DNA of 36,909 bases from Chloroflexales bacterium ZM16-3 (GTDB lineage: Bacteria; Chloroflexota; Chloroflexia; Chloroflexales; Chloroflexaceae): positions 1-36,909 of the forward strand of contig RYFE02000049.1 in assembly GCA_004138175.2 (NCBI GenBank). The letters are read 5' to 3'. The position numbers and the translations under genes were made by a program. Under the pieces are notes generated by a model. The model searched no databases, was not told the origin of the DNA, and was given only the letters and a program-made list of their open reading frames with translations. Numbering within the stretch: the first letter of the stretch is position 1; every line of letters begins with the position of its first letter. Below are positions 13,329-34,345 of the stretch, piece after piece.

Positions 13329-16300
13329 GTGCTTGCGGGCGGCTTTCGGTCGCTCACCACACGCCTTCGTCCCCCGCCCGACCAAGCCCCGCTCACTGAG
13401 CCCACCTTCGCCCCTTTGATCGGCGATCTGTTGAGCGCCGCGCAGCTTGATGCCTATGCTGGCGCTCTCGCCGCCGAGCACCGCGATGCCGTGGTGCTGC
13501 CCAGGGGCGGCGATCCCCTGCGCGCCGCACTTGAGCGCGACGGGCGGCAGATCGCTGCTGCCCATCAGATCCTCGGCGAGGATATTCGGCGGCGCACGCC
13601 GATCAGCCCGGCCGCCGAGTGGCTGATCGATAACTTTCACGTCGTCAATGACCAGATTCGTGCGATCCGCCACGACTTGCCGCCGGGCTACTACCGCCAG
13701 CTGCCGAAGCTGCGCACCGGCCCGCTCGCCGGGCTCCCCCGCGTCTACGCTATCGCGCTGAACCTGATCGGCCACACCGATGGGCGTGTGGACGCTGAGA
13801 CGCTGCTGCGCTTCCTTAATGCCTACCAGTCGGTCGCGCCGCTGCGCATGAGTGAGCTGTGGGCTGTCGCTATTATGCTGCGGATCGGGCTGGTGAAGAA
13901 CCTTAGTCGGCTGTCGACTCAGGTGCTCCAGGTGCGCGCGCTGCGCCACGAGGCCGATATGTGGGCCGAGCGGCTGCTCGGCACGCCGGGCGAGGATGTC
14001 CACGAGGCGGGCGTGCTGCACGATCTGACGCGGCTCCACCCGGTTATGCCCCTCACCCTGGCCGCCCAGATCCTGCGCCGCCTGCGCGCCCACGAGGGTG
14101 AGCACGACATCGGCCGGCTGGTGACCTGGCTGGAGACCCAGCCCTTCACGCCGCACCAGACGGTCGAGTCGCTCGTTCACGAGGAGCACCAGCGCCAGGC
14201 GGCCAACCAGGTCTCGGTGGGCAATACGATCGGCAGCATGCGGGCGATCAGCGCCCTTGACTGGCCGGACTGGTTCGAGCGGGTGAGCCAGATCGAGCAG
14301 ATCCTGCGCCGCGACCCGGCGGGGGCCTATGTCCGCAGCACCTTCGCCACCCGCGACCGCTACCGTCACGCGGTTGAGGATCTGGCCCTCCGCGCGAAGC
14401 TGGGTGAGGACGAGGTCGCCCGACGCCTGATCGCTCGCGCGGCGGCTGCGCCTGATGATGACTTGCGCGGACGCCATATCGGCTACTACCTGGTGGCCAC
14501 GGGCCGCGCCGCCTTTGAGGCCGAGCTTGGCTATCGCCCGACGCTCGCCGATGCCGCCGTCCGCGTCGCTATGGATCACCCGACGGCGCTGTACCTGGGC
14601 GCTATCGGCGGGGCCACGGCGGCCACGGTGGCCGTCGGCATACGGCTGGCGGTGGGTGACAGGAGGGATACAATCCGACTCCCGACTCCCGACTCCCGAC
14701 TCCCGACTCCCGACTCCCGACTCCCGGCCCTCCTCGGCCTCGCCCTGGCGCTGCTCCCGGCGAGCGCCCTTGCCGCCGAGCTGGTCAACCGGGCGGTGAC
14801 GAGCCTGCTGCCGCCGCGCGTGCTGCCGCGCCTGGATCTTGTTGAGGGCATCCCCGCCGAGCTGACGACGGTGGTCGTTGTGCCGACGCTGCTGCTGACC
14901 CCGGATAGTGTGAGTCGGCTCCTCGATGGCCTGGAGGTGATCGCCCTGGCCAACCAGGACCAGCACCTGCACTTTGCGCTGCTGACCGACTTTGCCGACG
15001 CGCCTGAGGAGAACATGCCCGAGGATGCCTCGCTGCTGGAGGCGGCTGCCGAGCGGCTGCGGCTGCTCGCCGAGCGCCACGGGCCTGATCGCTTCCTGCT
15101 CCTGCACCGGCACCGTATCTGGAATAGTCGGCAGGGCCGCTGGATGGGCTGGGAGCGTAAGCGCGGGAAGCTGGAGGAGTTTAACGCGCTGCTGGCCGGC
15201 GACCGTGAGACATCTTATGCGGCTATGGTCGGCGAGCTTGGCCTGCTGGAGCGGGTGCGCTATGTGATCACCCTCGATGCCGACACGCAGCTGCCGCGCG
15301 ATGTGGGCCAGGCTCTGATCGGCACCCTGGCCCACCCGCTCAATCAGGCCCGGCTCGACCCAGAGACGGGCCGCGTGGCCGAGGGCTACGGCGTCCTTCA
15401 GCCGAGGGTAGGCATTGATCTGCCCAGCGCCACGGCCAGCCGCTTCGCGCGCGTATTCGCCGGTAATGTCGGCGTCGATCCGTACACCACGGCTGTCTCG
15501 GACGCCTACATGGATCTGTTCGGCGAGGGCATCTACGCAGGCAAGGGCATCTACGACCCGGTGGCGTTGCGAGCGGCCTTGCGCGGGCGCTTCCCCGAGA
15601 ATACGCTGCTTAGCCACGACCTGATCGAGGGTCTCTACGCCCGCGTCGGGCTGCTCTCCGATGTGGAGGTGGTGGACAGCTACCCGACGACCTATGCCGC
15701 ATGGGCGGCCCGCCAGCACCGCTGGGTGCGCGGCGACTGGCAGATTGCGGCGTGGCTGCTGCCGCGCACGCCTGGCCGCGACGGCTGGCAGCCGAATGTG
15801 CTGCCGATCATCGCCCGCTACAAGATCTATGATAACCTGCGGCGCAGCCTGACCCCGTCGGCGACGGTTGCCCTGCTCGTCGCGGGCTGGCGCTGGCTAC
15901 CCGGTCGCCCGGCGGCATGGACGGGGCTGGCCCTGGCGCATCTGGTCGCGCCTCTGGCCTTCGACCTCGCCGCCGCCGCCCGCGCCATTGCCCTAGACCC
16001 CGCCAACATCGGTGCGCTGCGGGCCAGGGGGCGCGAGCTTCAGCTGAGCGCGCGGCGCCTGGCGCTGAACACGGCCTTCCTGCCGGATCAGGCAGTGCTC
16101 AACATCGACGCGATCACCCGCTCGCTGACGCGGATGCTGGGCACGCGGCGCAACCTGCTGGAGTGGGAGACCGCCGCTCAGTCGCAGAGTCGGCTCCAGC
16201 GCTCGCACGCGCCGGTGCTGCGCCGGGGTGCGCCGCTGGTTGTCGTGGGCGCAGCGCTTGTCGTCCTGCCTGGCCGGAGCTATGTCGATGCACTGGCCGC

Positions 16301-23909: not shown

Positions 23910-24791
23910 TTAGCGCAACTCTGCCTCCTCGATCTTGTTGATCGCGAAGGCACGCACATCCTGGCGCAGCTCGCAGTAAGCGCGCAGGTAGGTGCCGTTT
24001 GTCTCACTCGTCAGGTAGATCGGCCTGATGGTTCGCGTTATCGACTCAGGGCTGCTCCGCGAGCGGTAGCGGATGCTGAGCGGGCGGCCCTCGGCTAGGG
24101 CGCGGGCGATCAGGGGCGGGGCATCTGGCTCGGGCGCGCCTGGCAAGAGGCCGCGCTCTAGCCGCATCGCGTCGCCGAGGGTCTCAATTCCCCGCTCGGA
24201 CATGGCTGCCTGGAGATAGGTGAAGAGGTCGCGCAGGGACAGCACATCGGCCAGGGCACGGTGGGTTGGCGCGGTGAGCTTAAGGTCACTGGCGAGGGCC
24301 GCCAGACTGTAGAACTGCCGCCGCAGTAGGCGGCGCGCCAGGGTCAGGGTATCGAGGGTTGGCCCGATGAGCGACGGCTGGTCGATATGGGCTAGCTCGG
24401 CGTTGAGGAAGGCCATGTCGAAGGGTAGGTTGTGGGCGATCAGCACCGCGCCTCTGGCCAGCGCGGCCACCCGACCGGCCGCGGCGTAAAAGGGTGCTGC
24501 TGCCGCCAGCTCCTCGTCATCGAACCCATTCACCGCCGCCGCCTGCGGGTCGAGCTTGCGGCCCGGCCGCACCGTGGTGCCCAGGTAGTCCTCGACCATG
24601 CCGCCGCGCACCCTGAGCAGTGCGATCTCGCAGACCCGGTGCCCTTCCCGCAGGTCGAGCCCGGTGGTCTCCAGGTCGAAGAAGGACAGGGGGATGTCGG
24701 TGAGTCGGGAGTCGGGAGTCGGGAGTTGGGAGTCGGTGAAGCAGCCCTCGACTCCCGAATCCTGACCCCCGACTCCCGCGCTACGGCGCAA
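23910..24791 (-). CDS. DnaQ-type 3'-5' exonuclease fused to a WYL domain
   Basis: The N-terminal domain is a DEDDh exonuclease: ExoI FFDLETTGLD, ExoII AHNLPFDMAFLN, ExoIII HRALADVLSLRDL. The C-terminus, from about nt 24115 to the stop, matches a WYL ligand-sensing domain: LSIRYRSRS, then GTYLRAYCELRQDVRAFAINKI (TYL in place of WYL). The fusion suggests an exonuclease controlled by nucleic-acid or nucleotide binding. The start is uncertain: I prefer TTG at 24791, which has AAGGTG four bases before it and overlaps the SH3b gene by 11 bases. An ATG at 24887 would need a long overlap. The N-terminus before the nuclease domain is encoded by heptamer repeats (SQLPTPDSRL). Confidence 0.8.
   Translation of the reverse strand: MRRSAGVGGQDSGVEGCFTDSQLPTPDSRLTDIPLSFFDLETTGLDLREGHRVCEIALLRVRGGMVEDYLGTTVRPGRKLDPQAAAVNGFDDEELAAAAPFYAAAGRVAALARGAVLIAHNLPFDMAFLNAELAHIDQPSLIGPTLDTLTLARRLLRRQFYSLAALASDLKLTAPTHRALADVLSLRDLFTYLQAAMSERGIETLGDAMRLERGLLPGAPEPDAPPLIARALAEGRPLSIRYRSRSSPESITRTIRPIYLTSETNGTYLRAYCELRQDVRAFAINKIEEAELR
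24707..24777. repeat. Heptanucleotide repeats in opposite orientations
   Basis: GGGAGTC at 24707-24713, 24714-24720 and 24728-24734 with one GGGAGTT (24721-24727). After a short gap GACTCCCG occurs twice (about 24750 and 24770) in the opposite sense. The copies can pair as a hairpin. The tract overlaps the start of the exonuclease gene and encodes the same LPTPDSRL peptide as the tract in the glucan synthase. Confidence 0.8.
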
Positions 24792-26046
24792 CGGGCACCT
24801 TGGCCGCCACATCTGCGGGGATGCCGAGCAGGTCGGCGGACACCCAGCCGCTTTTGCCTCGCACATTCTCGACCTCGTACCAGTCACCGGCAGCTGTCTT
24901 CTGCTTGAGGTTCACGACCTCATCGACGTTGACCCGGTCGATCTCAGTGCTGGTAGAGTCTGGGTTCTCGTGGATGGCACCATTCTTGAAGACGCTGACG
25001 ATTGTGGCGACCGGGATCTGGGCCTGCACATCGGCGGGGATGGCCAGCAGGGATGCGCTGATCCAGCCGACCTGCTGCTGTCCGTCGTCGGTGTTGGCAA
25101 ACCTGATCCGGTACCACAGGCCGTTAGGTGTCCGCTCGATCAGCTGAATTGCATTCCCCGCGTCCACACCGCCGACCCGGTTGTTGGCGGTGACGATCGG
25201 CAGGGCGCGGACATTGCCGCCATTGGTCACGCTTACCTCGGGGCCGCTGGGCAGGGTGGAAGTGGGCTCAGCCGTCGGCTCGACAGCCTCGGCGGGCGCT
25301 TCCGTCGGCGCAGCTGTGGCCTCCGGCGTGGCTGTCGGCGGGGTGACAGCGACATCCTTGCTAAAAAATTTGTCGGCGTAGCTCGGCGGGACGGCCAGGT
25401 CGAGCTCGCCGGTGGCCCCCCCGTCTGTGGTGCTCACGCGCACGCGATACACAGGACCCTCTTCCGGCGACGGAGCCTCATCGAGCTTGCTGGCCTTGAT
25501 CTCAACGCGTCCGCCCTGAACTTGGCCTAGCGAATCTTCGGGCCGCAGGAAGGGGAAGGGTTTCCCGTCAGCTAGCAGTTCCACCGTCACCTTGGTGCCG
25601 TCGGGGAGGCCGGTTGTCTCTGCGGCGACGCTCACCGTTACCGGGCTGACCCGGATCACATCGGCCTTAGTGACTGTCAGGCTCACCGGCTCGGGGGTAG
25701 GCAGCGGGTTGGCCTGCGGCGTTGGGGTGCTGCCCGGCATCAGGGTGAGCACGAGCACCAGGACACCCAGGATCGCCAGGATCGGCACGAGAACGACGAG
25801 GATCTTGCCAGCGAGCGAGAGGTTGACGAACCGCTCGCGCCAGCCACTCGGCTCATCGTCGAGAGGAATCGAGGTGTAGTCCACAGGGCCGCTGAGGCCG
25901 GGTGATCCCCCCATCGGATCGTCGGTCGGGGTTTGGCGTCGCCGCAGACGCCTGGTGAGGATGACGACAATCACCAGCGCAAGCACGCCGGCCACAATCA
26001 GGATGATTGCGATCGTCGGGTCGAGGCGGCTGAGCAGATCTTGCAT
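24781..26046 (-). CDS. Membrane-anchored protein with two bacterial SH3 domains
   Basis: A 421-residue protein. Membrane segments lie at about 12-34 (IAIILIVAGVLALVIVVIL) and 80-104 (ILVVLVPILAILGVLVLVL). A beta-rich region follows (LTVTKADVIRVSPVTVSVA), then a low-complexity Thr/Pro/Ala/Glu linker, then two SH3b repeats: GNVRALPIVTANNRVGGV to GWISASLLAIPADV, and GAIHENPDSTSTEIDRV to GWVSADLLGIPADV. SH3b domains commonly bind peptidoglycan or proteins outside the cell. It is first in a minus-strand block with the exonuclease, hydrolase and glycosyltransferase genes and has a good promoter at 26099-26127. Confidence 0.85.
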   Translation of the reverse strand: MQDLLSRLDPTIAIILIVAGVLALVIVVILTRRLRRRQTPTDDPMGGSPGLSGPVDYTSIPLDDEPSGWRERFVNLSLAGKILVVLVPILAILGVLVLVLTLMPGSTPTPQANPLPTPEPVSLTVTKADVIRVSPVTVSVAAETTGLPDGTKVTVELLADGKPFPFLRPEDSLGQVQGGRVEIKASKLDEAPSPEEGPVYRVRVSTTDGGATGELDLAVPPSYADKFFSKDVAVTPPTATPEATAAPTEAPAEAVEPTAEPTSTLPSGPEVSVTNGGNVRALPIVTANNRVGGVDAGNAIQLIERTPNGLWYRIRFANTDDGQQQVGWISASLLAIPADVQAQIPVATIVSVFKNGAIHENPDSTSTEIDRVNVDEVVNLKQKTAAGDWYEVENVRGKSGWVSADLLGIPADVAAKVPVAP

Positions 26047-26173: not shown

Positions 26174-26201
26174 GGGAGGCGGGAGGCGAGAGACGAGAGG
26201 C
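26174..26201. repeat. Heptamer repeat tract (GGGAGGC type)
   Basis: Four consecutive seven-base units: GGGAGGC, GGGAGGC, GAGAGAC, GAGAGGC. A perfect TATAAT (26210-26215, plus strand) begins nine bases later; the repeats occupy its -35 region. Confidence 0.65.
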
Positions 26202-26251
26202 GGATATGCTATAATTCAAAGACCTCAGTGTACAGATCAGTTAAGAGGACG

Positions 26252-26362
26252 ATGATCGTGATGAGCCTCCTCCCACAGCTCACCGCCCCCTCCCCCGCGC
26301 CGCGCCGGGCCTCGCCCTGGCACTGGTATGGCCTCCTGCTCACCACTCGCGGCTTCATGTGA
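26252..26362 (+). other. Short open frame upstream of metG (leader or gene remnant)
   Basis: A 36-codon frame (MIVMSLLPQLTAPSPAPRR, ending LLTTRGFM) follows a perfect TATAAT at 26210-26215 and an AGAGGA close to the ATG. WHWYGLLLTTRGFM resembles the start of a membrane protein that breaks off where the GAATG heptamers begin. It could be a leader peptide, a truncated gene or chance. Confidence 0.3.
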
Positions 26363-26489
26363 ATGCTGAATGGTGAATGGTGAATGCTGAATGGTACCTT
26401 TCTTTCAGCATTCTCCGTTTAGCGTTCAGCACTTCTGCCTGTCCACCTCTGTCCGGCATTCAACATTCAATATTGATCATTCAACATTT
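26361..26489. repeat. Inverted heptamer repeat arrays upstream of metG
   Basis: Five exact units of GAATGST fill 26361-26395 (GAATGCT, GAATGGT, GAATGGT, GAATGCT, GAATGGT). Reverse-complement units follow at 26407-26434 (AGCATTC, then degenerate copies) and at 26455-26489 (GGCATTC, AACATTC, AATATTG, ATCATTC, AACATTT). The arrays can pair into a long imperfect hairpin ending 14 bases before the metG ATG. No T-box motif is present. Confidence 0.75.
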
Positions 26490-26503: not shown

Positions 26504-28294
26504 ATGCCCGAGCATATCCTCGTGGCCGTGGCGTGGCCCTACGCCAACGGCCCGCGCCATATCGGCCATGTGGCCGGCTTCGGTGTCCCGTCCGATATCT
26601 TCGCCCGCTACCACCGCCTGCGCGGCAACCATGTGCTCATGGTTTCTGGCACCGATGAGCACGGCACGCCGATCACGCTGGCCGCTGATAAGGAGGGCAT
26701 CACCGCGCGTGATATCGCCGACCGCTACAGCAAGGTGATTGGCGACGACCTGTTCAACCTGGGGCTGAGCTATGACACCTTCACCCGCACGACGACCGAG
26801 AACCACTACGCTGTCACGCAGGATCTTTTTAAGACGCTCTACGACAAGGGCTATATTCTGCGTCAGGAGACGCTTGGTGCCTTCTCGGCCACTACTGGCC
26901 GTACGCTGCCCGACCGCTATGTTGAGGGGACATGCCCGATCTGCGGCTATAAGGACGCTCGCGGCGACCAGTGCGATAACTGCGGCAACCAGCTTGACCC
27001 GGTCGATCTGATCGACCCGCGCTCGAAGGTCGATGGCACCACGCCGATCTTTAAGGAGACTGAGCACTTCTTGCTCGACCTACCGGCCTTCGGCGAGCGC
27101 CTGCGCGCGTGGATCAGCGCCCAGGAGCACTGGCGGCCGAATGTGCGCAGCTTCTCGCTTAACTTCATTAAGGAGCTCAAGCCGCGCTCGATCACCCGCG
27201 ACCTTGACTGGGGCGTGCCCATTCCGCTGCCTGAGTATGCCGACCGCGACGATAAGAAGATCTATGTCTGGTTCGATGCAGTGATCGGCTACCTCTCGGC
27301 GAGCATCGAGTGGGCCAACAACCGTGGCACGCCCGAGGCATGGCGCGACTGGTGGCAGAACCCGGAGGCCCGCCATTACTACTTTATGGGCAAGGATAAC
27401 ATTGTCTTCCACACCGTGATCTGGCCGGGGATGCTGCTCGGCTATGGCGCGGGCGGGGTCTATGGCCAGGCGGTAGAGGCGTATCGCGATACGCCCCTAC
27501 AGTTGCCGTACAATGTGGTGTCGAGCGAGTTCCTGACCATGGAGGGCAAGAAGTTCTCCAGCTCGCGCGGGGTTGTGATCTATGTCCATGAGGTGCTCAG
27601 CCGCTACGACGCCGACTCGCTGCGCTACTTCCTGACAATCGCCGGCCCGGAGAACCAGGATACTGACTTCACCTGGGCCGAGTTTGTGCGGCGCAACAAC
27701 GATGAGCTGGTGGCCACATGGGGCAACCTGGTGAACCGCACGCTCACCAATGTGTATAAGAACTTCGGCAGCATCCCGCAGCCCGGCGCGCTGGCCGAGT
27801 CCGACAGCGCGCTGATCTCCCATGTGGAGGGCGGCTTCGCGAGTATCGGCGATCTGCTGGCGACCGCCCGCTTCAAGGCGGCGCTGACCGAGGCGATGCG
27901 GCTGGCTGGACTGGTGAATATCTACCTGAGCGAGCAGGAGCCCTGGAAGGTGATCAAGGTCGACCGTGATCGCGCCGCGACGATCTGGTACACCGTCCTG
28001 CGCTGTGTGAATAGCCTGCGGATCTACTTTACGCCCTTCCTGCCTTTCAGCAGCCAGAAGCTCCACGAGTACCTCGGACACGATGGCTACATCGCCGGGC
28101 CGCTGGAGTTCAAGGAGTATACCGAGGCGAGCGGTCGCAGCCATCGCGTGCTCACCGGCGACTACACCGGCTGGGTGGGTCACTGGGAGGTGAGCGAGCT
28201 ACCGGTGGGCCAGGCGCTGCGCGAGCCGAAGGCGCTCTTTAAGAAGCTCGATGAGAAGGTGATCGAGGAGGAGTTGGCCCGCCTCGGAGGCTAG
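26504..28294 (+). CDS. metG: Methionyl-tRNA synthetase
   Basis: A 596-residue class I aminoacyl-tRNA synthetase that charges methionine tRNA. The HIGH motif is H19-I-G-H22 after PYANGPR. One zinc knuckle is complete: C144, C147, C157, C160 ([17 protein letters not shown]). The KMSKS-type loop is K350-F-S-S-S354 (GKKFSSSRG). The anticodon-binding helical domain follows, with [12 protein letters not shown]. There is no C-terminal tRNA-binding EMAP-like domain, so this is the short form. AGGGGG precedes the ATG. A strong terminator follows directly. Confidence 0.96.
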
Positions 28295-33696: not shown

Positions 33697-33953
33697 CCCC
33701 TGACTCCTTCCTTCATTGGAGATGGGAGACTGCTGATTGGCCGTGCCAATCAACAACCCGCAACCTACAATGTGCAATCTGCAATGCGACCATCGGCCAT
33801 CAAGACACATCGCAGCGGAGCGAGCGAAGGGCGACGTAGCCCGGGGGACGTGGCAGGGAGCGCTAAAGGAGGGCTTGTCTGCCATCCTGTGCGAATACCG
33901 CCGTCTATGGTATCATGGTATTGCAATATAATCGTTAAGGATGAGGTTGTGCT
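33697..33953. other. Divergent gap with heptamer-like repeats and a TATAAT box
   Basis: Between the ThrE-type and MIP18-type genes. It holds seven-base periodic runs (GGAGATG GGAGACT near 33718; AACCTAC AATGTGC AATCTGC AATGCGA near 33766-33793). A perfect TATAAT at 33927-33932 probably serves the MIP18-type gene on the plus strand; no clear -35 is seen. Confidence 0.45.
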
Positions 33954-34278: not shown

Positions 34279-34345
34279 TGTCAGTTCTCAGTAATCCCGC
34301 GACGTTGTCCAGTAATCCCGCGACGTTGTCCAGTAATCCCGCGAC
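34279..34345. repeat. Transposon-like end with three 21-bp repeats
   Basis: After TGTCAGTTCT, the 21-base unit CAGTAATCCCGCGACGTTGT-C occurs at 34289-34309 and 34310-34330, with a partial third copy at 34331-34345. A 5' TGT end followed by several roughly 20-bp repeats is typical of Tn7-, Tn5053- and IS21-type ends, where they bind the transposase. The nearby truncated TniB/TnsC-like ATPase supports this reading. Confidence 0.55.

Follow-up and report, generated by a model that had tools for sequence, protein, structure and literature searches.

Short tandem arrays of seven-base units are scattered through the genome that carries the window (the whole stretch of DNA analysed here, 36,909 nucleotides), and these arrays, although they belong to many families of different sequence, have a common geometry. 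Read 5'-to-3', the purine-rich strand leads away from the nearer gene and into the intergenic gap, an inward rule that is followed by 116 arrays and broken by 14 in the source genome (G000), with counts of 57 to 8 in a congener (G004) and 90 to 23 in a member of another genus (G007). The first-pass annotation of the window had noticed several families with one period and supposed a shared mechanism. The former observation extends to the sampled genome, where 158 of 228 arrays lie outside open reading frames (ORFs), and the latter is likely, since several families share both the period of seven and the geometry.

What is left to explain is whether a directional process writes the arrays or selection favours the same geometry. 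In the literature consulted (PMC4692102, PMC4679880, as far as these sources were available), the bacterial heptamer excess comes without an established function or mechanism. The presence of array-rich G000 and array-free Candidatus Oscillochloris fontis in one genus makes the question accessible to comparison and experiment.

Genomes and gene borders

G000 is a draft Chloroflexales genome of 6.27 Mb in 127 contigs, with the window as contig C72, and it falls in the genus of Ca. Oscillochloris fontis; the window's metG product is 86% identical to MetG of that species. The congeners compared are G001, G002, G003, G004 and G005, among which G002, with a metG leader as in O. fontis, serves as the O. 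fontis sample. The genomes were sampled in part (about 13% of G000, 6% of G004 and 4% of G007). Gene borders were taken from a home-made gene caller, exact for stops and approximate for starts, and unit types were counted by consensus, near-identical units (some one base apart) entering separately.

Genome-wide excess of heptamer arrays

Period-7 repeats are clearly in excess beyond the window, contrary to the result that would have refuted the first-pass annotation: 400 kb of the same genome contain 85 perfect tracts, where three order-3 Markov sequences lead one to expect 0.66 on average. With mismatches allowed, 400 kb outside the window give 82 arrays at period 7, against none in one order-4 Markov sequence, and 8, 8 and 9 at periods 6, 8 and 9. 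Over 837 kb of G000 the numbers are 228 at period 7 versus 29, 15 and 26 at the same three control periods, and over 400 kb of G004 they are 102 versus 5, 8 and 14. Called ORFs contain 70 of the 228 arrays in G000 and 21 of the 102 in G004; several of these ORFs may be spurious calls. Several GGGAGTC and GGGGG(T/C)T arrays cluster within called ORFs over a few kb of G000 contig C13 (about 93.5-99 kb).

The commonest units in the 837 kb of G000 are AATCTGC (43), ACTCCCG (43), AACATTC (23), AACCCCC (21) and ACTCCTG (10), and those of G004 are AACATTC (21), AATCTGC (18) and ACAGGGG (17). G-tracts are repeated in GGGAGTC, GGGGGTT and GGGGACA arrays, and AATCTGC, AACATTC and AATGCTG units have no G-tract. 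Within arrays the number of units varies, and variant units differ mostly by transitions.

The load is patchy and species-specific among relatives. At the density found in G000 (27.8 per 100 kb; 222 arrays in 800 kb), the whole genome would carry about 1,700 heptamer arrays by extrapolation, and about 85 would be predicted for the 304 kb sampled from O. fontis, which contain no period-7 array. Threefold CAATCTG occurs in 11 of 61 genomes, with 146 overlapping matches in G000, 521 in G004, 121 in G007, 200 in G016 and none in G002. Threefold CARCATT occurs in nine of the 61 (171 in G000, 385 in G004, elsewhere at most 4). For threefold CRACYCC, also in 11 of 61 genomes, the 642 matches of G000 and 111 of G004 compare with 210 and 97 for reversed-pattern controls, the latter presumably coming from other C-rich heptamers that fit the reversed pattern. 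G007 has 212 arrays of 50 unit types in 244 kb of contigs partly picked for having hits, and 64 arrays in the 104 kb of 13 contigs taken by number (without C2 and C14).

Arrays of the window and the leader of metG

The following features of the window are referred to below.

14675-14726, minus strand: perfect GGGAGTC array of 7.4 copies (CCGACTC on the plus strand), found with TRF
24691-24778, no strand assigned: GGGAGTC array (TRF, 24691-24736), then its inverted CTCCCGA partner, to 24778
26174-26203, plus strand: degenerate GGGAGGC-type array (TRF, 4.3 copies, 82% matches)
26261-26362, plus strand: small ORF of 33 amino acids upstream of metG, with matches in its own and other genomes
26360-26395, plus strand: five exact GAATGST units from the stop codon of the small ORF onward, the purine-rich strand being the sense strand
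26406-26433, minus strand: inner reverse-complement arm of degenerate CAGCATT-type units, read by eye from the sequence; pairs in the predicted fold
26457-26489, minus strand: outer reverse-complement tract of CATTCAA-type units, directly before the metG ribosome-binding site (TRF 26457-26488, 76% matches)
26504-28294, plus strand: metG, methionine--tRNA ligase, 596 amino acids (TIGR00398, 489 bits against a cut-off of 336)
33760-33786, minus strand: degenerate CAATCTG-type array, pyrimidine-rich on the plus strand (CAACCTA, CAATGTG, CAATCTG, CAATG), from TRF and reading

Most of the tracts named in the first-pass annotation were recovered. Its GGGAGGC-type tract, placed at 26174-26201, reaches 26203; five exact GAATGST units are present at 26361-26395, and the ACTCCCG tracts correspond to 14675-14726 and 24691-24736. 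The reverse-complement units up to 26489 are real, but they are degenerate, and a period of exactly seven was too strong a wording. Two AATCTGC runs had been proposed as well; the one at 33.77 kb is a degenerate array, and the one at 23.9 kb amounts to about 1.7 units and is not an array.

The array at 14675-14726 lies inside a long plus-strand ORF whose downstream part matches GH94 families. In the pair at 24691-24778, which has many similar matches of 70-90 bp elsewhere in the genome, the first array falls within the called 5' part of ORF 23910-24887, and 2 bases separate the outer end of the CTCCCGA partner from the stop codon at 24781-24783, which belongs to the minus-strand ORF 24781-26046. 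The window also holds a perfect 21-base repeat of 2.7 copies at 34289-34345, CAGTAATCCCGCGACGTTGTC, whose unit length is divisible by seven although the repeat is of a different type.

Upstream of metG, the GGGAGGC-type array sits between the divergent upstream gene and a promoter-like box, TGCTATAAT, read from the sequence. This array breaks the inward rule, its nearer border being the small ORF, 52 bp away; at the same point O. fontis has no array and a shorter spacing. The small ORF, which ends in ..WHWYGLLLTTRGFM, follows the promoter-like box and precedes metG, and its place in front of that gene is conserved across several genera: matches were found in its own genome and in 5 of the 60 others searched, with metG downstream at all six loci and in L032. 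Its product may be a leader peptide, the last codon or one close to it coding for Met. Its TGA stop doubles as the first bases of the GAATGST array.

The inverted arrays in front of metG had been proposed to form a long hairpin, and they do so in the predicted fold of the leader (-55 kcal/mol, z -4.6), but a function is unsupported. The leader of G004 has the same GAATGST hairpin in diverged form; among its 42 pairs, 34 are unchanged, three keep pairing after a one-sided change, one is compensatory and four are broken. Other leaders carry other units (CAACGCG-type in G003, by eye; GCATTTT-type in G001; AATCTGC-type in G005), and the leader of O. fontis has no heptamer units. No known RNA family was found in the window at gathering score.

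A common polarity relative to neighbouring genes

The counts given at the outset for the inward rule leave out four ties, the arrays within ORFs (70, 21 and 41 for G000, G004 and G007), a few at the ends of pieces, and those that either have no border within 60 bp or lie at equal distance from two (26, 15 and 52). The rule is kept by 23 of the 25 unit types having three or more arrays, the types mainly against it being ACGCAGT (1 for, 7 against) and AAAATCC (0 for, 3 against). It holds beside gene starts as beside gene ends and in every gene arrangement, that is, between convergent (39:4), divergent (35:5) and codirectional genes (189:36).

Neighbouring arrays follow the same order. Within 250 bp of each other, G000 and G004 together have 92 inverted same-family neighbours, 10 direct ones and 9 of unrelated families, and 88 of the 92 inverted pairs open with the purine-rich arm, across loops that vary in sequence and length. 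A complementary partner is, however, not needed. G007 has 48 cases in which arrays of unrelated families stand no more than 60 bp apart; 20 have the purine-then-pyrimidine order and 3 the reverse (12 are both purine, 11 both pyrimidine and 2 other), and complementarity is therefore dispensable for polarity. Likewise, solitary arrays of G000 and G004, which lack a complementary partner and have no second array within 250 bp, are 47 for the rule and 10 against, with 2 ties; an earlier count of 61:14:2 (77 arrays, called intergenic borders) had included some with a partner inside a called ORF.

Several controls bear on this result. The background polarity of array-free intergenic regions is low (0.01-0.05 versus 0.14-0.17), and 69 arrays in the middle of ORFs are without polarity (32:37). 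As a check on bias of the gene caller, counting the arrays that fall within ORF ends raises the tally by 17 in favour of the rule and by 5 against it. Intergenic hairpins of non-heptamer sequence are also mostly purine-first, if more weakly (76:26, 47:7 and 45:23), and part of the polarity may for that reason have another cause. In 350 kb of plasmid A of the cyanobacterium Trichormus variabilis, 13 period-7 arrays were found; of the 7 outside ORFs, a small sample, 2 follow the rule and 5 oppose it, which, as far as it goes, speaks against its generality in cyanobacteria. All four AATTCGC arrays of that plasmid are opposite in sense to the inward rule.

One explanation would take the arrays as G-quadruplex elements, as has been considered for Xanthomonas and Nostoc, and the repeated G-tracts of GGGAGTC, GGGGGTT and GGGGACA arrays agree with it. 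Nevertheless, AATCTGC and AACATTC/AATGCTG types, which are among the most frequent, lack a G-tract and show the same polarity (53:3, 23:3 and 5:1), so that we regard G-quadruplexes as a very improbable origin of the arrays; they may add an effect for G-rich families.

Borders and end phases

Arrays are concentrated at stop codons. In G000 and G004 together, a distance within 10 bp is found at 92 of 139 borders on the 3' side of genes, where arrays placed at random in these regions would give 51.3 +- 3.6, and at 24 of 193 gene-start borders, where they would give 34.1 +- 3.8; 26 further borders with overlapping gene calls are omitted. In the two genomes, 25 arrays keep their period right from the base that follows a stop codon. 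Their register overlaps the stop by a mean of 1.48 bases, whereas random stops give 0.73 +- 0.16 and shuffled stops 0.82 +- 0.14 (0 of 2000 trials in either case).

Arrays also have preferred ends. Of 70 GATTGCA arrays, 55 begin at the G or the first A of the unit and 27 are 31-33 bases long, and gene ends (20 of 24) and gene starts (21 of 30) have a similar preference for where the array begins. The phase preference of GAATGTT is weaker at gene starts (7 of 20) than at ends (17 of 24), and that of GGGGGTT is weak throughout. Dispersal of whole arrays would produce such preferences too.

In REP and BIME elements the unit is an imperfect palindrome that a Y1 (RAYT) transposase moves. A dispersed mobile element of this kind, consisting of arrays some 32 bp long whose ends are fixed, would account for the preferred end phases and lengths, the extragenic position, the occurrence of singles and inverted pairs with variable linkers, and the species-specific load. 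Unlike REP units, however, those described here are tandem heptamers; pair loops differ in sequence and length, families of different sequence have the same polarity, and Y1_Tnp was not found in array-rich G004. We thus consider such an element unlikely.

Turnover between congeners and likeness of arms

In 140 orthologous intergenic regions of G000 and G004, arrays are present in both genomes in 23, in one only in 15 and 15, and in neither in 87. Several of the 23 hold different families in the two genomes: at A_C1 17485, G000 has a CAACCCC array and G004 a CTGTCCC array in the same place, beside an identical 23-base flank and the stop codon, and the family also differs at A_C1 16362, 50462, 202830 and 264526. 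In five array regions of G000 or G004 with an ortholog in the O. fontis sample, that ortholog has no array, and the few array-free orthologs give no picture of how arrays entered. At A_C1 295297, G000 carries an insert, about 85 bp long and including a GATTGCA array, that is missing from G004; CTTA stands at both of its ends and may be a short target duplication.

Where one species has no array at a slot, it often has a different palindrome there. Non-heptamer palindromes of the GTAAGGGCGCAGCAG...CTGCTGCGCCCTTAC and GTAGGGGCG types occupy the same after-stop slots in orthologs of A_C1 196673, 208736 and 152794.

The two arms of a pair belong to one family but match no better in register (7.7% mismatch) than when shifted by one unit (7.6% and 8.4%). 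Arms of the same locus are nonetheless more alike than arms of different loci in three of five families (mismatch 0.066 vs 0.098, 0.043 vs 0.056 and 0.021 vs 0.061), and the arms are therefore not wholly independent; in the other two families the likeness is reversed. Copying of one arm into the other by fold-back was rejected, given that arms are not mirrored unit by unit, even if somewhat alike per locus in the three families.

These data bear on a second explanation, in which inverted arrays after stops are interchangeable 3'-end hairpins, terminators or leader attenuators, selected at the RNA level. The placement after stop codons, the palindromes that replace heptamers, the stable predicted fold of the metG leader and the purine-first order of hairpins of other sequence are all consistent with it. 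However, in 82 hairpins with 2148 aligned pairs, the 62 hairpins between codirectional genes have 32 G-U, 49 A-C and 29 other mismatches on the sense strand, so that, G-U mismatches not being in excess, selection for RNA pairing is not indicated. Nor do convergent regions have more than their share, with 19 array clusters in 121 regions (15.4 kb) versus 45 in 140 divergent regions (41.7 kb), which is similar per length. Solitary arrays share the polarity, non-complementary families stand side by side in G007, and the metG hairpin loses four pairs in G004. We hold selection of RNA hairpins to be an unlikely explanation. In fact, hairpins and G-quadruplexes alike drop out as the general cause because the polarity spans nearly two dozen unit types, with or without a partner.

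Directional writing or slippage

A serious rival to directional writing is replication slippage with filtering, in which slippage makes heptamers and selection removes the harmful ones, leaving border positions and the tolerated orientation. The variable unit numbers and the prevalence of transitions among variant units fit this explanation, and the absence of arrays from the O. fontis sample indicates that rates can differ between species. On the other hand, unrelated local seeds would not make a few units recur at many loci, as AATCTGC and ACTCCCG do (43 each in 837 kb). Slippage with filtering also needs separate reasons for sense purines after stops and pyrimidines before starts, and it leaves unexplained why convergent gene ends follow the rule too (39:4) and why families are swapped in one slot. 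Slippage with filtering accordingly appears possible, if somewhat doubtful, as the main origin of the arrays.

Our tentative preference is directional accretion, in which arrays would be written from gene-side DNA 3' ends into the gap and evolve by slippage afterwards; we think this quite possible, short of probable, on the observed polarity, borders, phases and family swaps, from which the directional writing is inferred. An interruption would arise in an intergenic region, and the gene-side DNA 3' end, at one or both sides of it, would grow into the gap. Growth would be primed by a match of 1-3 bases, and a short pyrimidine-rich template would be copied repeatedly into a heptamer array, the two sides being joined later and the array then changing by slippage. 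Folding of RNA, G-quadruplex formation and any influence on nearby genes would then follow from the arrays and not be what causes them. We infer 3'-end growth by template copying because the polarity is independent of sequence and partner, the overlap with stop codons resembles priming, and the ends are preferred. More specifically, an undescribed activity with telomerase-like logic and many templates could extend gene-side 3' ends with heptamers, the gaps thus recording healed interruptions as purine-inward arrays, but this version is rather unlikely.

Counting against accretion are 2 of the 25 unit types, the GGGAGGC tract of the window, the Trichormus plasmid and the weak phase of GGGGGTT and, at gene starts, of GAATGTT. 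The likeness of arms per locus in three families, the weaker purine-first lean of non-heptamer hairpins and the array-free orthologs count against it as well. None of three enzyme families tested in 61 genomes tracks the arrays. The RVT_1 reverse transcriptase was rejected as the obvious writer: it is found in 42 genomes and does not follow array load, the profile having no match in array-rich G007 (88% complete) or in G001, and one copy in G000. A REP/RAYT-type mobiliser was set aside as well, with Y1_Tnp in 41 of the 61 genomes and none in G004, and so was Ku-dependent end joining, with Ku in none of the 61.

Comparison with known heptamer repeats

The STRR, short tandemly repeated repetitive sequences of filamentous cyanobacteria, are heptanucleotide repeats. 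Like them, the arrays described here form several heptanucleotide families in one genome, in another lineage, a comparison made on family number alone. Three heptanucleotides of Calothrix are mentioned in PMC4692102. The likeness to STRR drawn in the first-pass annotation is fair, but a closer case is that of the G-rich heptamers of Xanthomonas and Nostoc (PMC4692102, in the portion available).

Rehm et al. 2015 (PMC4692102) describe one G-rich heptamer type per genome in X. campestris, X. axonopodis and Nostoc sp. PCC 7120, dispersed and mostly intergenic, with a preference for four units and with 70 and 75 convergent inverted pairs in the two xanthomonads. These repeats are nearer to the 5' neighbouring ORF whatever its direction, they overlap stop codons, and G-quadruplexes are considered for them. 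The arrays reported here are similarly dispersed intergenic tandem heptamers with convergent inverted pairs (88 of 92 purine-first) and stop-codon overlap, and the G or purine strand near the 5' neighbouring ORF has its counterpart in the inward rule (116:14 in G000). In contrast to that account, as far as it was available, there are here many families per genome, several without G-tracts, and families are exchanged at the same slot between species. The unit given there, GGGANTN (GGGAATC at least once), which is able to form G-quadruplexes, is not that of the present arrays: GGGAGTC fits it loosely, and AATCTGC and AACATTC/AATGCTG lack a G-tract. The arrays of the G000 type thus read as a multi-family version of a heptamer geometry largely described, in the portion of PMC4692102 available, for one G-rich type.

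Other heptamers are more distant. MacGregor 2015 (PMC4679880) reports TAACTGA heptamers in Maribeggiatoa, Bacteroidetes and some cyanobacteria; most stand directly ahead of start codons, one inverted repeat occurs in 170 sets, and a translational role is suggested. Arrays of both kinds are intergenic, of few units, patchy among relatives and in some cases overlap stops; the repeats there have a single unit (according to the portion available of PMC4679880), and that unit, TAACTGA, is not among the 25 most frequent units of G000 or G004. In Chloroflexus aurantiacus, (GATAGRA)n heptamer satellites of one unit, 22 in number, are scattered over the genome (PMC6749651); they share with the present arrays the phylum, the heptamer unit and the scattering, and differ in having, in the part of that report available, a single unit. 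Among the matches listed for the open-licence literature, no earlier report describes many heptamer families sharing one polarity; that literature yielded nothing on intergenic heptanucleotides in Chloroflexi, nor on tandem repeats in Oscillochloris genomes.

Tandem-repeat cDNA synthesis with an A-B-A' template logic has been described for DRT10, whose antiviral product is protein-primed (PMC12632851). Such a logic would be expected to give arrays with the same bases at both ends, as in many of those seen here. RVT_1 reverse transcriptases do not track array load here.

Finally, an element with forms of AAACTGTAAAGC...CTTGTCTTA is repeated near heptamer arrays in several genomes (L134 and several loops of G000 and G004), and it looks like a separate dispersed repeat.
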